Source: Thermoplasmata archaeon M9B2D (GTDB lineage: Archaea > Thermoplasmatota > E2 > DHVEG-1). From it: a DNA stretch of 6,373 bases. The stretch covers positions 1-6,373 of the forward strand of contig MUGD01000111.1 in NCBI GenBank assembly GCA_002900555.1, given 5' to 3'. Numbering within the stretch: position 1 is the stretch's first letter; each line of letters starts with the position of its first letter. Positions 1,967-6,373 of the stretch are shown here, in pieces. Under the pieces are notes generated by a model. That model did not search any database. It was given only the letters and a program-made list of their open reading frames with translations, and was not told the DNA's origin. Made by a program: the position numbers and the translations under genes.

Positions 1967-4408
1967 ATGAAGAAACATTTCATTGCTTTGATGCTAAAAC
2001 AGAGGCAGTTTTTTGTAGCAACCATGTCGTGTCTAATGCTTTTTGCTGTGGTAACACCGGTAAGTCAAGGTATGGATGACGCTCGTATAACAATCACGTA
2101 TGTTTTTGATAGCCCAAGTATTGAAACCGTTGATATTGCTGGTATTATCTACAATCGGGTAAGTCTGCCGGACTGCTCTCCTGCGGGCAGTGCTGGAGAA
2201 CCAAAAATCCCGTCAAAAGGAGTGTTTCTTCTCTTACCGCCGAAATCACAGGTCAGTCGAATTACAGTGACGGTCGGCGAGGGGATGTTGGTTGGGTTAG
2301 AGTACCCTGTGGAACCTACAAGCCAAGCCATCCCTCTTTCACAGTCAGAGGATGTTCCAACTCCGACTCCGAATCAATTGATTTATCAATCCGATGCGCA
2401 GTATCCTGGGAACCTGTATACAAACGTTGGTGTGTATGCGTTCCGGGGGTATCAGATTCTTGTGTTGCTCTTGCATCCCGTGCAATACAACCCTGTGACT
2501 GGTGATTTGCTGTTTTATACAAGTATGGAAGTCTCTGTGGAAACCATTCATACAGGTGTACAATCAGCCTTCTACAGGGGTTTTGACCCTGATAGGGACC
2601 AGGTGAATCAGAAAGTGGATAACCCGTGGATGTCTGCACGGTATCATCAGGAATGCACCCCTGTTCCGACACCTTTGGATTCCTATAATCTTCTCATTAT
2701 CACGACTGATGCGTTACAAAGCGGCTTTGTACCTCTGAAAGATGCGCATGACGCCACTGGTGTCACCACTGTGATTAAAACACTTACCGATATCGGGAGT
2801 AGCTCTCTCGAAAGTATACGCAACTATATTCGAGATGCCTATACGAACTGGGGTGTTGACTATGTCCTTCTTGGGGGAGATACAGATGTTGTTCCTGCTC
2901 CGATCCTCTGGGTTTCTGGTATGGATGAAAACGTCACCTACTATGAGGACACGATGCCTTCAGATCTGTACTATGCGTGTCTTGATGGTCCCTATAATTA
3001 TGATGGTGATGGCAAATGGGGTGAGCCAAACGATGGCGAAAATGGTGGTGATGTCGATCTCATTGCGGAGGTCTATGTCGGCAGAGCGTGTGTCGGGAGC
3101 ATGACAGAGGTGAATAATTTTGTCACAAAGACAGTTGCCTATATCAACAAAGACCCGACAAACGAGTACCTGAAGAAGGTTTGTTTTGCAGGTGAATACC
3201 TTGGAAACTATGGTATCGCAAGCTATGGGGGGACTTATCTTGATCAAATGGTCAATGGCTCATCGGACGATGGATACACCACGGTTGGGATCCCTGCAGA
3301 TGAGTATATCATAAATAAATTATATGATGCTCCCGGGTATGACTGGCCGAAATCAGCGATTATCTCAGTCATCAACAATGGCGTCCATATCATCAATCAC
3401 CTTGGTCACGCCTCCTATACCTATAATTTGAAGATGGGTACTTATGATGTCACTGCTCTTACTAATCCGTCGAACCGCACATGTTTTATCTATTCGCAGG
3501 GGTGCATGGCTGGGGGTTTTGATAATGGTGACTGCATCGCAGAATATTTTACGGTGAAAACAACTCACGGCGCATTTGCCTGCATTATGAACGCCCGTTA
3601 TGGTTGGTTCTGGTCCTATAGCACAGATGGGGATTCACAGCGGTTCCATCGGCAGTTCTGGGACGCGGTGTTTGGGGAAGATATTAAGGAGATTGGACGG
3701 GCAAATCATGATTCAAAAGAGGATAATATTCCCATCATCGGTCGCTCGTGCATCCGCTGGGTATACTACGAGACAAACTTATTTGGCGACCCTTCGTTAC
3801 GATTCATGGAGAGTTCGAACCATCCCCCTGAGACGCCCGATCTTCCCTCTGGTCCGACACAGGGTAAAATCGGAGTGCAGTACACGTTTACCACCAGCGC
3901 CACAGACCCTGATACAGGGGATGAGTTGTATTATCAGTGGAACTGGGGAGATGAGGTAAGCGATTGGTTTGGCCCCTATATACCAGGGGAATCTGTTGAA
4001 GCGACACATACATGGGCGGCCCCTGGAGAATATCAGATAACAGTGAAAGCAAAAGATAACGGAGGGTTGCAGAGTGCATGGTCTGATCCGCTGTCGATTT
4101 CTATCCAGGAAGGTCCTCAGATTGAGATTACTTCGATTTCTGGTGGCTTGCGGGTTACAGCGGAAATTCGTAACAATGGTATTGTGGATGCGACACATGT
4201 AAATTGGACGATTTCTTTGCAGGGACGGGTTTTGTTTGGCCAAGAAAACAGCGGTACTATCCTTGGTATTTCTGCTGGCGACAGCTTAAAGGTCTCCACA
4301 GGGTTTGTCTTTGGACTAGGCGCAGTGGATATCAACGTGACCGCAGCTGATGCAGAGATGAGCGCGACTGCTTTCTTGTTTGGGCCGTTTATCTTTACTA
4401 CACGGTAG
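1967..4408 (+). CDS. Secreted gingipain-like C25 cysteine peptidase with PKD and C-terminal surface domain
   Basis: This is an 813-residue exported endopeptidase. Residues 1-35 form a signal peptide: basic start, hydrophobic core about 15-32, polar SQG end. Residues about 36-238 resemble the C25 propeptide, with 'GEPKIPSKGVFLLLPP' and 'RGYQILVLLLHPVQYNPVTG'. The C25 catalytic domain spans about 240-613 and includes LLGGDTDVVP (301-310), a D/G-rich likely calcium segment (341-362), catalytic His481 in HLGHASY and catalytic Cys513 in SQGCMAG. The 32-residue spacing is close to that of gingipains. It ends with NLFGDPSLRF. A PKD domain (about 620-713, WNWGD...HTW...YQITVKAKD) follows. A C-terminal domain (716-813) closes the protein and is shared with the gene at 4743-5978. 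The ATG at 1967 is chosen over the longer frame from TTG 1868 because the signal peptide and TATA box both fit it. It probably degrades extracellular protein; the specificity is unknown. No downstream operon partner is present, and the next gene is convergent. Confidence 0.93.
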   Translation: MKKHFIALMLKQRQFFVATMSCLMLFAVVTPVSQGMDDARITITYVFDSPSIETVDIAGIIYNRVSLPDCSPAGSAGEPKIPSKGVFLLLPPKSQVSRITVTVGEGMLVGLEYPVEPTSQAIPLSQSEDVPTPTPNQLIYQSDAQYPGNLYTNVGVYAFRGYQILVLLLHPVQYNPVTGDLLFYTSMEVSVETIHTGVQSAFYRGFDPDRDQVNQKVDNPWMSARYHQECTPVPTPLDSYNLLIITTDALQSGFVPLKDAHDATGVTTVIKTLTDIGSSSLESIRNYIRDAYTNWGVDYVLLGGDTDVVPAPILWVSGMDENVTYYEDTMPSDLYYACLDGPYNYDGDGKWGEPNDGENGGDVDLIAEVYVGRACVGSMTEVNNFVTKTVAYINKDPTNEYLKKVCFAGEYLGNYGIASYGGTYLDQMVNGSSDDGYTTVGIPADEYIINKLYDAPGYDWPKSAIISVINNGVHIINHLGHASYTYNLKMGTYDVTALTNPSNRTCFIYSQGCMAGGFDNGDCIAEYFTVKTTHGAFACIMNARYGWFWSYSTDGDSQRFHRQFWDAVFGEDIKEIGRANHDSKEDNIPIIGRSCIRWVYYETNLFGDPSLRFMESSNHPPETPDLPSGPTQGKIGVQYTFTTSATDPDTGDELYYQWNWGDEVSDWFGPYIPGESVEATHTWAAPGEYQITVKAKDNGGLQSAWSDPLSISIQEGPQIEITSISGGLRVTAEIRNNGIVDATHVNWTISLQGRVLFGQENSGTILGISAGDSLKVSTGFVFGLGAVDINVTAADAEMSATAFLFGPFIFTTR

Positions 4409-4691: not shown

Positions 4692-4944
4692 TTTTAAACA
4701 ATACGAAAAAAAGAGAAAGGGGGATGTCCCCTTGTTGTTTCTTTATATTTTGATGAAGATGAGCAGTACTGTTGCTTCTTGGTTTTTTGTGGCTGGTCCT
4801 GCAGTCACTGTTATCGTCGTTGCCCCTAATCCTAGGATTAAACTTGATGTAATCGTCTCTTCGCCACCTGCTGCAAGCGAGGCGATGGTGCCTGTGGTTT
4901 CTTTGCCAAGGATGATAAGGCCGCCAGTGAGTTTGATGCTCCAG
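4692..4944. repeat. Long direct repeat, copy A (C-terminal domain plus terminator)
   Basis: The stretch 4712-4944 matches 6141-6373 base for base with a constant offset of 1429 and no gaps. I count 3 mismatches in 233 positions (4777/6206, 4788/6217, 4839/6268). Weaker identity continues outward through an indel-bearing A-rich stretch to the shared 11-mer TTTTAAACAAT (4692-4702 and 6108-6118). It covers the last 66 codons of the 4743-5978 gene, its stop codon and its terminator. How far the identity runs into the gene is unknown because copy B is cut by the window edge. Confidence 0.95.
4706..4733 (-). terminator. Hairpin plus T-tract terminator of the LamG/PKD gene
   Basis: On the minus strand, 10 bases after the stop codon, AAGGGG-ACATC-CCCCTT forms a 6-bp stem with a 5-base loop (4717-4733). 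It is followed by TCTC and seven T (to 4706). This is the classic intrinsic terminator shape, unusual in archaea, where the T-tract alone usually suffices. The same element ends the neighbouring gene at 6127-6162. Confidence 0.7.
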
Positions 4945-5978
4945 TCGATATCAGCCGCGTCCCCTGTGCCAGTATTTTGTACGACTGCATTTACTTTGAG
5001 TAATCCACCAGTAATCTCGCCAATCCCTATGACTGGTTGTGGTCCAACAATCGTCGCGGTTGTGGTGTCTGTGGCAATGGTTCCCTCATCGTCGGTGACG
5101 GTCAGGGTGACGTTGAAGACACCTGCTTCTGTGTAAGCGTGGGTCGGGTTTTGTTCTGTGGCTTCTTCCCCGTCTCCGAAGTCCCAGTGCCAGGTGTACG
5201 GTTCAACTCCTCCGGTCGCAAAGCCTGTGAACTGGATCTCTTCGTCTACATCTCCTTCGTATGGTCCGCCAGCACTGCAGACCAGTTCGTTACTCATTGG
5301 CACCAGTGACATATCATCATAGAAGACTTTTGAGGCAGTGTTAGCAAAGAGGTCGACTGCATCGATAACCAAAAATCCATCGCCAGCGTTATTCCAACAT
5401 GCGGTCCATGCCTTCTGTATCAATAGGTAATCGTTGTAATAGAATTTAAACCAGTCTGAATCAAGGTCGATTTCTGTACGAAGTTCAATCCATTGACCGG
5501 TTATCAGCGGTGTCGTCACAGCGTCTGCTTCTGACTCGACGATTTGATTAATCGAATCAAATCTGATTACGAGTGCCCATTTGTTATTTGATCCCGCGCC
5601 GTCCGTGTAGCTGCTGAATAACATGAAATATGATTCCCCTGCAAAGTCAGTCGGGACGAATTGCCAGGCTGTGTACACCCATTGACCTGATGTATACCCT
5701 TCATATTCATGTATCAGGTCTGAATTTAATTCGATTTTTACTGAATGCGGGGTACTTATGGATTGTTCGTTGGTGACGGTTCCATAAAATTGTGGGTCAT
5801 TGTCCCACCCTTTCCATCCACCATCATCTGGTGTCCCGTCTAATAGTTGTCCGTTGGTGTATGTATCAAAGTTATCAGCCCATGTTCGGCTCGCGCTACT
5901 AGTTAATGTGGCACTTGCTCCGAGGAATAGGAACAATGCTCCTATTGCCCCAATGGTTCTACAATAGTTTTTTTTCAT
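4743..5978 (-). CDS. Secreted ConA/LamG-like and PKD-domain surface protein
   Basis: This is a 411-residue exported protein. Residues 1-29 are a signal peptide (MKKNYCR, hydrophobic core about 9-22, then a Ser/Thr/Ala cleavage region). Residues about 33-225 look like a concanavalin-A/LamG-type jelly roll: 'DNFDTYTNGQLLDG' opening, aromatic-rich strands, and 'SKVFYDDMSLVP' close. Such folds bind or cleave polysaccharide; I see no clear catalytic motif, so binding is the safer guess. A PKD domain follows at about 236-311 (GGPYEG, WDFGDG at 265-270, HAYTEAGVFNVTLTVTDDEG). Residues 312-411 are a beta-rich domain matching the peptidase's C-terminus and ending in hydrophobic LLIFIKI. The start at 5978 is supported by GGAGG at 5989-5993 and the signal peptide. 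The gene lies downstream of, and in the same direction as, a paralog-tailed gene at 6172, but each has its own terminator, so they are probably separate transcripts. Confidence 0.88.
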   Translation of the reverse strand: MKKNYCRTIGAIGALFLFLGASATLTSSASRTWADNFDTYTNGQLLDGTPDDGGWKGWDNDPQFYGTVTNEQSISTPHSVKIELNSDLIHEYEGYTSGQWVYTAWQFVPTDFAGESYFMLFSSYTDGAGSNNKWALVIRFDSINQIVESEADAVTTPLITGQWIELRTEIDLDSDWFKFYYNDYLLIQKAWTACWNNAGDGFLVIDAVDLFANTASKVFYDDMSLVPMSNELVCSAGGPYEGDVDEEIQFTGFATGGVEPYTWHWDFGDGEEATEQNPTHAYTEAGVFNVTLTVTDDEGTIATDTTTATIVGPQPVIGIGEITGGLLKVNAVVQNTGTGDAADIDWSIKLTGGLIILGKETTGTIASLAAGGEETITSSLILGLGATTITVTAGPATKNQEATVLLIFIKI

Positions 5979-6010
5979 CTATACTACGCCTCCACATCAT
6001 ATTTTTTTTT

Positions 6011-6020
6011 TATTTTATAT
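6011..6020 (-). promoter_or_regulatory. Candidate TATA box of the LamG/PKD gene
   Basis: The minus strand reads ATATAAAATA, centred about 37 bases before the ATG at 5978. This would place the transcript start near 5990, right at the GGAGG ribosome-binding site. A second candidate, TTTAAATTAA at 6051-6060, would give a leader of about 50 bases that leaves the site fully transcribed. I cannot choose between them from sequence. The region is uniformly AT-rich, including nine T in a row at 6002-6010 on the plus strand. Confidence 0.45.
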
Positions 6021-6126
6021 GAAAATATCTGTATATTACATAGCTCTGGTTTAATTTAAATGTTTTGATACAAATACAGGTCGCTTCCTTAGGGAAATAC
6101 GAGATGTTTTTAAACAATATTACGTT

Positions 6127-6162
6127 AAAAAAAAGAAAATAGAGAAAGGGGGATGTCCCCTT
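6127..6162 (-). terminator. Hairpin plus T-tract terminator of the right-edge gene
   Basis: The same AAGGGG-ACATC-CCCCTT hairpin as at 4717-4733 is found here (6146-6162). On the minus strand it is followed by a T-rich run ending in eight T (6127-6134). The stem and loop are identical between the copies while the T-tract part has diverged in length, which suggests constraint or recent homogenisation up to the hairpin. Confidence 0.7.
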
Positions 6163-6171
6163 GTTGTTTCT

Positions 6172-6373
6172 TTATATTTTGATGAAGATGAGCAGTACTG
6201 TTGCTGCTTGGTTTTTGGTGGCTGGTCCTGCAGTCACTGTTATCGTCGTTGCCCCTAATCCTAGGATCAAACTTGATGTAATCGTCTCTTCGCCACCTGC
6301 TGCAAGCGAGGCGATGGTGCCTGTGGTTTCTTTGCCAAGGATGATAAGGCCGCCAGTGAGTTTGATGCTCCAG
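6172..6373 (-). CDS. C-terminal end of a second surface protein sharing the tail domain (partial)
   Basis: Only the last 66 codons and the stop are inside the window; the gene enters from the right. The residues, from WSIKLTGG to LLIFIKI, equal the end of the 4743-5978 product except for one substitution: Ala replaces Glu401 (GCA for GAA). The other two base changes are silent (Thr ACC for ACA, Leu TTG for TTA). The missing upstream part is probably an exported multidomain protein such as another PKD or lectin-like paralog, but that is inferred from the tail alone. It is co-directional with the 4743-5978 gene, with 193 bases between its stop codon and that gene's ATG. Confidence 0.85.
   Translation of the reverse strand, partial: WSIKLTGGLIILGKETTGTIASLAAGGEETITSSLILGLGATTITVTAGPATKNQAATVLLIFIKI

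Follow-up and report, generated by a model that had tools for sequence, protein, structure and literature searches.

Shared and Probably Recombining C-Terminal Domains in Archaea

According to the accessible part of the survey by Makarova et al. (2021, PMC8416519), many loci encoding PKD/Ig proteins are found in Methanosarcinales and Methanomicrobiales, with a C-terminal Ig domain that is either conserved or homogenised by recombination. The locus described here resembles these loci in its secreted PKD and Ig proteins, its clustered genes, its mosaics and its homogenised C-terminal Ig domain, but it belongs to another lineage. Moreover, the accessible part of that text contains no mention of a stop codon and hairpin homogenised together with the domain, of unrelated fronts on one tail, or of an apparent joint replacement of the tail type in two paralogs. 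VARTIG of Thermococcales, covered in the same pages (PMC8416519), likewise have a recombining, CARDB-like C-terminal Ig domain; unlike here, where paralogs are made alike, it is hypervariable in VARTIG, and strains and species exchange it. VARTIG proteins are recognized by a length of at least 1000 aa and by a C-terminal Ig domain that is their most variable part, whereas the protein under study has 411 aa and a neighbor with a near-identical tail. A third comparison is offered by mtrA-1 and mtrA-2, where, as far as the available portion of the article goes, one domain of archaeal paralogs has been homogenised by gene conversion and another differs (Wang et al., 2015, PMC4632066); these are, however, two enzymes of one methanogen operon, in contrast to surface-type proteins and their C-terminal domain.

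Homogenised C-terminal Ig domains are therefore already reported for other archaea, and concerted evolution of one domain is known for mtrA. What is additional here is the lineage, the inclusion of the stop and the hairpin, and the presence of unrelated fronts on one tail; there are also hints of a joint change of tail type in both paralogs. M9B2D, 3300003432D, and SM1-50 figure as Thermoprofundales (MBG-D) genomes in the portion of PMC6461988 that was available, and the names 3300003432D and SM1-50 also occur among the related loci. Among named proteins, the closest belongs to Thermoplasmata archaeon M9B2D; the source is a Thermoplasmatota archaeon of the Thermoprofundales (MBG-D) type. The same portion describes MBG-D archaea as being among the most frequent sediment archaea and as thought to degrade protein with secreted peptidases (PMC6461988). 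A search for work on shared tails of MBG-D secreted proteins found no paper among the top matches listed, most subscription journals lying outside its coverage.

Gene Layout of the Locus

The window, i.e., the whole stretch of DNA analyzed, is an entire contig of 6,373 bases (the database gives 6373 as the longest contig for P0001). An earlier note, made from the letters of this DNA, had spoken of two adjacent genes. Gene 1 is indeed complete (4743..5978, minus strand, 411 aa; ORF, homologs, and full-length model), but the second gene is a 3' fragment consisting of its last 66 codons and the stop (6172..6373, minus strand; ORF), so that any comparison is one of a complete gene with a fragment. 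In the product of gene 1, a signal-peptide-like start is followed by a lectin-like N domain, then by PKD and the C-terminal Ig domain; the full-length model has a mean pLDDT of 81, with residues 405-411 below 50. The N-terminal domain is modeled as a lectin-like β-sandwich at about residues 33-230 (5289..5882, minus strand), with a weak Foldseek match to CBM66 4b1m (rank 45, E 6.7e-5, TM by target 0.59). It is the part that differs between paralogs, and it defines the N-classes of the N tree considered below. The PKD domain (residues 236-309; 5052..5273, minus strand) matches PF18911 PKD_4 at E 2.2e-18, and its structure matches include collagenase PKD domains, with 38-39% identity in several rows. 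The C-terminal Ig-fold domain (CTD; residues 313-411; 4746..5042, minus strand) is a marginal member of CARDB.

Convergent to gene 1 lies a gene for a gingipain-like C25 peptidase (1967..4408, plus strand; PF01364 E 1.1e-56), for which 1967 is a chosen start, the listed ORF opening at 1868. The 3' end of this gene is itself a divergent copy of the CTD (4109-4405; profile match E 5e-26). At four related loci (L001, L059, L061, and L065), a C25 gene with the same tail domain adjoins a lectin-type or tail gene, and the gene order of L001 (Bin3_14.8m) is that of the window: KaiC-like (a label resting on sequence likeness), PHP, C25, and then the lectin-PKD-CTD gene. Two minor observations concern these loci. 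Between the lectin and C25 genes of L001, at ~1900-2500, an apparent remnant of a broken transposase can be seen by eye, and L061 carries at 2568-3244 pieces of a second lectin-like gene beside the intact one, as if a tandem partner had decayed.

A Near-Identical Pair of Gene Tails

Positions 4712-4944 and 6141-6373 (both minus strand) agree at 230 of 233 bases without gaps at an offset of 1429, which upholds the count of the earlier note; the agreement is 31/31 at 4712-4742 and 199/202 at 4743-4944. Among 73 control offsets (start step 50), the best 233-base stretch reached only 86/233, and a repeat search of the window returned a pair of 238 nt at 98%. As the genes lie on the minus strand, the block takes in the final 66 codons with their stop and then runs on for ~30 bases, which include a hairpin. 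Base by base, the three differences also turn out as previously described: 4777 T/G changes codon 401 from Glu to Ala, while 4788 T/G (Thr) and 4839 T/C (Leu) are silent. The terminator-like hairpin, AAGGGG-ACATC-CCCCTT, follows gene 1 at 4717..4733 and gene 2 at 6146..6162 (minus strand; letters compared, fold computed), but the T-run after it reads TTTTTTT in one copy and ATTTTCTTTTTTTT in the other. The description of the repeat as a cassette of tail and terminator is accordingly right for the stop and the hairpin, and wrong for the exact T-run.

To the left of 4712/6141, the identity drops to 7/12 and then to 15/60 and 21/60, which gives the block a sharp 3' edge just beyond the hairpin, ~30 bp past the stop. 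At the other end, copy 2 is identical to copy 1 over the final 105 bases of the window; as the window comprises an entire contig, the repeat would end on this side where the assembly stopped and not at a real boundary. Homogenisation of the pair takes in silent and non-coding sites. The two tails are 98.7% alike, whereas the second one is 77% alike to the equivalent locus L001, from which it follows that they were made alike after the lineages had split.

Tail Sharing at the DNA Level in Related Genomes

Beyond the window, DNA sharing is found in genome G001, where two genes on one contig (L006), for a DUF4394/PKD protein of 504 aa and a C25 peptidase of 902 aa, have 675 bp in common at 85%; a gene on another contig (L069), for an FG-GAP protein of 772 aa, matches this pair over 375 bp at 87%. 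The fronts of these tail-sharing proteins are unrelated. In L006, the shared DNA runs via the stop and the downstream region into the start of the next gene, so that gene end, spacer, and next gene start recur as a unit; in both L006 and L069, the non-coding sequence is homogenised through the 3' flank. This recurring unit, shared between unrelated genes, lies in L006 at 2536-2716, 4089-4266, and 10600-10728. In G005, two C25 paralogs with unlike fronts on one contig (L016) share 637 bp at 89%, the likeness ending about five bases after the stop. Two contigs of G005 (C118 and C132) have the tail and hairpin region in common, and much of the front too. At the locus equivalent to the window in G009 (L059), a tandem pair stands ahead of the C25 gene, with 89% DNA identity in the last 33 codons, 78% over the whole CTD, and mostly 41-56% in the N part. 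This is a weaker case because its 3' flanks are not alike.

For a broader view, 65 distinct complete CTDs were kept from 110 matches, 64 of which enter a sample of 192 within-genome CTD pairs. Only eight of these pairs, from G001, G005, and G009, reach 75% DNA identity, the median being 54%, and among the tandem CTD genes of G006 and of C118 in G005, homogenisation was looked for and none was seen. Homogenisation is thus the exception and not the general rule, and the suggestion that the arrangement serves to diversify exported proteins is not demonstrated by these eight pairs. As a separate observation, the equivalent lectin-PKD genes of two genomes, at L066 7110-8444 and L068 7012-8325, are 84-94% identical in the tail and 88-92% in most of the 5' part, with an N-domain block of only 61-66% in between, so that the middle looks replaced.

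Fronts and Tails of Related Proteins

Relatives were collected with the N parts of P0003 and P0001 as queries (the best 120 out of 383 matches and the best 120 out of 308, respectively); as regards the missing front of gene 2, these searches gave only relatives. From the resulting 282 proteins, 178 with the domain at the end were chosen, 175 of which can be compared in 14,970 pairs. Where the N identity is 40-60% (6,100 pairs), the CTD identity averages 48%, and a CTD identity of at least 93% together with an N identity of at most 65% occurs in 23 of the 14,970. There are relatives with N parts 46-56% identical but identical C-terminal domains. At the protein level, P0014 and P0015 are identical in their last 176/176 residues and P0009 and P0010 in their last 154/154, each pair with 51% identity upstream. 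P0003, among the closest tail relatives of P0001, shares 44% with it in the N part and 96% in the CTD.

The opposite case also exists: in 18 pairs, the fronts agree at 88% or more and the tails fall short of them by 10 points or more, the lowest tail identity being 39% (P0106/P0111). Several of these pairs are explained by two discrete tail types, named "IKI" and "GVK" after their last residues, which are only 43-45% alike in these pairs and which occur on fronts 97-99% identical (P0180/P0188, P0246/P0247, and P0247/P0251). P0180 and P0247, whose N parts are 55% alike, have a common GVK tail (98%). An IKI tail (98-100%) is shared by their near-twins: P0188, whose N part matches that of P0180 at 97%, and P0246/P0249/P0250, which match P0247 there at 97-98%. 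Since the proteins of these swap pairs come from different and partly short contigs, they are possibly chimeras joined via the PKD region.

Trees were made from 34 of the 178 proteins, picked partly because of a conflict between front and tail. The N tree falls into four classes, whose members are mixed in the groups of the tail tree; the N-class label requires three changes on the former and 19 on the latter. Six AU tests, of groups that were named after viewing the tree of the other region, all end in rejection: three N classes fail as clades with the tail data (p 6e-8 to 2e-80), as do three tail groups with the N data (p 5e-23 to 3e-63). Paralog similarity restricted to one region, combined with conflicting trees, is the mark of gene conversion, and it is found here at the protein level among these 34 chosen rows of relatives.

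Origin of the Shared Tail

The tails of the window probably form a recombining module, one of which has been copied over the other by recombination between paralogs. Gene 1 and its truncated tandem neighbor would share a module made of the C-terminal, CARDB-like Ig domain, the stop, and the hairpin, often joined in relatives by the PKD domain. Homologous recombination between paralogs, either gene conversion or ectopic crossover, presumably RadA-dependent, would recently have overwritten one tail with the other, and the copying would stop upstream where the fronts are too unlike to pair. Conversion or ectopic recombination is our first choice because of the pattern among the relatives and the sharp 3' edge; we infer that conversion and not duplication made the pair, and that the second gene has a different front. 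For the family as a whole, the idea of a recombining tail is largely supported by identical tails on unlike fronts, by conflicting trees, and by shared DNA behind unrelated fronts. A recently duplicated or converted tail, as first proposed, was therefore the right kind of explanation, although only a part of the family shows a fixed tail with a variable front.

A plain and recent tandem duplication, making gene 2 a near-copy of gene 1 throughout, is somewhat unlikely, but it keeps some weight because the front of the second gene lies past the contig end. The unbroken run of identity to that end is what a full-length duplicate would give. It is harder to reconcile with the loss of identity so soon after the stop, with the very different fronts that near-identical tails can carry in relatives, P0003 being one close to P0001, or with the tandem pair of L059 in G009, whose N parts differ.

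Recombination between paralogs may also be looked at from the side of the tail types. It can be hypothesized that the tail is a strain-specific surface address, of which all paralogs of a strain carry one type and switch together, a new type being taken from the dozens of CTD genes in the genome, e.g., to match a changed surface partner. This rather unlikely reading would be based on the common GVK tail of P0180 and P0247 and the IKI tail of their near-twins P0188 and P0246/P0249/P0250, all of them from different contigs.

That the second tail is an assembly artefact, i.e., a copy of the first misjoined at the contig end, is improbable. The contig does end inside the repeat, as is typical of short-read assemblies. 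Two contigs of G008 (C30 and C37; L064 and L065) end in PKD with an exact overlap of 99 bp, which amounts to an unresolved branch, and swapped-tail protein pairs from metagenomes could include chimeras via near-identical PKD DNA. Against this stand the three differences along the block, the separate 3' flank of each copy, the tandem arrangement found again in L059, and the 11-15% difference between the copies in L006 and L016, which is too much for a collapse. In 32 loci, there are six cases of a match no more than 15 bp from a contig end, one of them in the N part and five in PKD/CTD; two of these five are probably the two ends of one gene. With the window added, six of seven contig ends fall in the tail, a weak excess since the tail already makes up 44% of the protein. 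A tail that recombination partly homogenises or exchanges may help to explain why some draft contigs break inside these genes.

A dedicated site-specific system, shufflon-like or integrase-driven, that moves tail cassettes is very improbable. The occurrence of IKI and GVK tails on almost identical N parts would suit it, but no recombinase was found among the five proteins scanned in the window, and tract starts vary between protein pairs. The sole inverted repeat that the repeat search gave at a block edge (922-948/4693-4719) has 27 nt at 74%, is T-rich with its arms 3.7 kb apart, and looks like chance. Strong selection keeping the tails identical without recombination is extremely improbable: the family does have conserved columns, among them N23, G71, and G73, invariant in the alignment A2, but the 66 codons contain no more than two silent changes, the identity extends to the non-coding hairpin region, and the same domain falls within A2 to 33% protein identity with the window copy.

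The C-Terminal Domain and Its Possible Role

The domain of the window is an Ig-like β-sandwich of ~100 residues, a CARDB feature known from PF1109, and its model is all β. In isolation it scores 23.7 bits against CARDB PF07705, above the cut-off of 22.7, and as part of the whole gene 1 protein 21.2 bits, below it; CARDB is matched by 26 of the 51 members of A2 at E<=0.01. A PDB sequence search with the CTD profile was not used; its matches were for the most part designed trefoils, along with the surface protein 2l0d (E 0.47) and a propeller protein. In the VIA-align rows, Ig folds of transglutaminases and glycosidases dominate; T9SS domains are absent among the rows listed, which proves nothing.

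A further known parallel is provided by the C-terminal domains of Type IX systems, which, according to the available part of a recent article, are also Ig-fold tails on secreted proteins, including C25 peptidases such as gingipain RgpB (Mizgalska et al., 2024, PMC11285876). In contrast to those systems, as that part presents them, none of the 45 family genomes has a SprA match above the cut-off (one weak match, E 6.5e-7; none in 14 control genomes, which include no positive control), and the 51 members searched against NCBIfam at E<=0.01 gave no sorting-model match, only TIGR01451 in four. The C25 neighbor scores 51.7 bits with the PorU model, for which the cut-off is 420. A T9SS-like reading, suggested by the Ig-fold tail and the C25 neighbor, was rejected on the SprA and sorting-model results. 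What counts against the rejection is that a table within the available part of PMC6461988 gives one C25 peptidase of M9B2D the name "Protein containing Por secretion system C-terminal sorting domain".

Regarding its position, 101 of 106 CTD matches in frames with a stop end at most eight residues from that stop in the fetched loci, or 73 of 78 when distinct domain sequences are counted once, as the loci overlap; the profile itself was made from C-terminal examples. By simple hydropathy, 165 of 170 full-length relatives have a signal-peptide-like start, and five of 170 have a membrane-length stretch (19 hydrophobic residues) in their last 105. From this it follows that secreted-type proteins commonly end in this domain, which is probably not a membrane anchor. 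Anchors of the archaeosortase type (PGF-CTERM-like) have a C-terminal transmembrane helix. Transmembrane or archaeosortase-type anchoring was rejected here on the all-β model and the rarity of hydrophobic stretches.

All β, last in line, and common to lectin-like, peptidase, and other secreted-type proteins, the domain may serve in docking or retention, so that many secreted proteins, C25 peptidases among them, would be held at the cell surface. Shared by dozens of exported-type proteins, it would be a candidate for their retention there. C25 peptidases have 5 to 36 matches per genome in all 45 genomes of the family of G001. Their number correlates with that of CTDs (Spearman 0.70, 45 genomes), which was not used as evidence because both follow genome size (0.78 and 0.72) and C25 is present in 45/45. 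The CTD model itself has between 0 and 59 matches per genome, with at least one in 44 of the 45 family genomes and at least 20 in 16 of them, and at E<=1e-12 the domain is matched in 66 of 80 genomes of the class.
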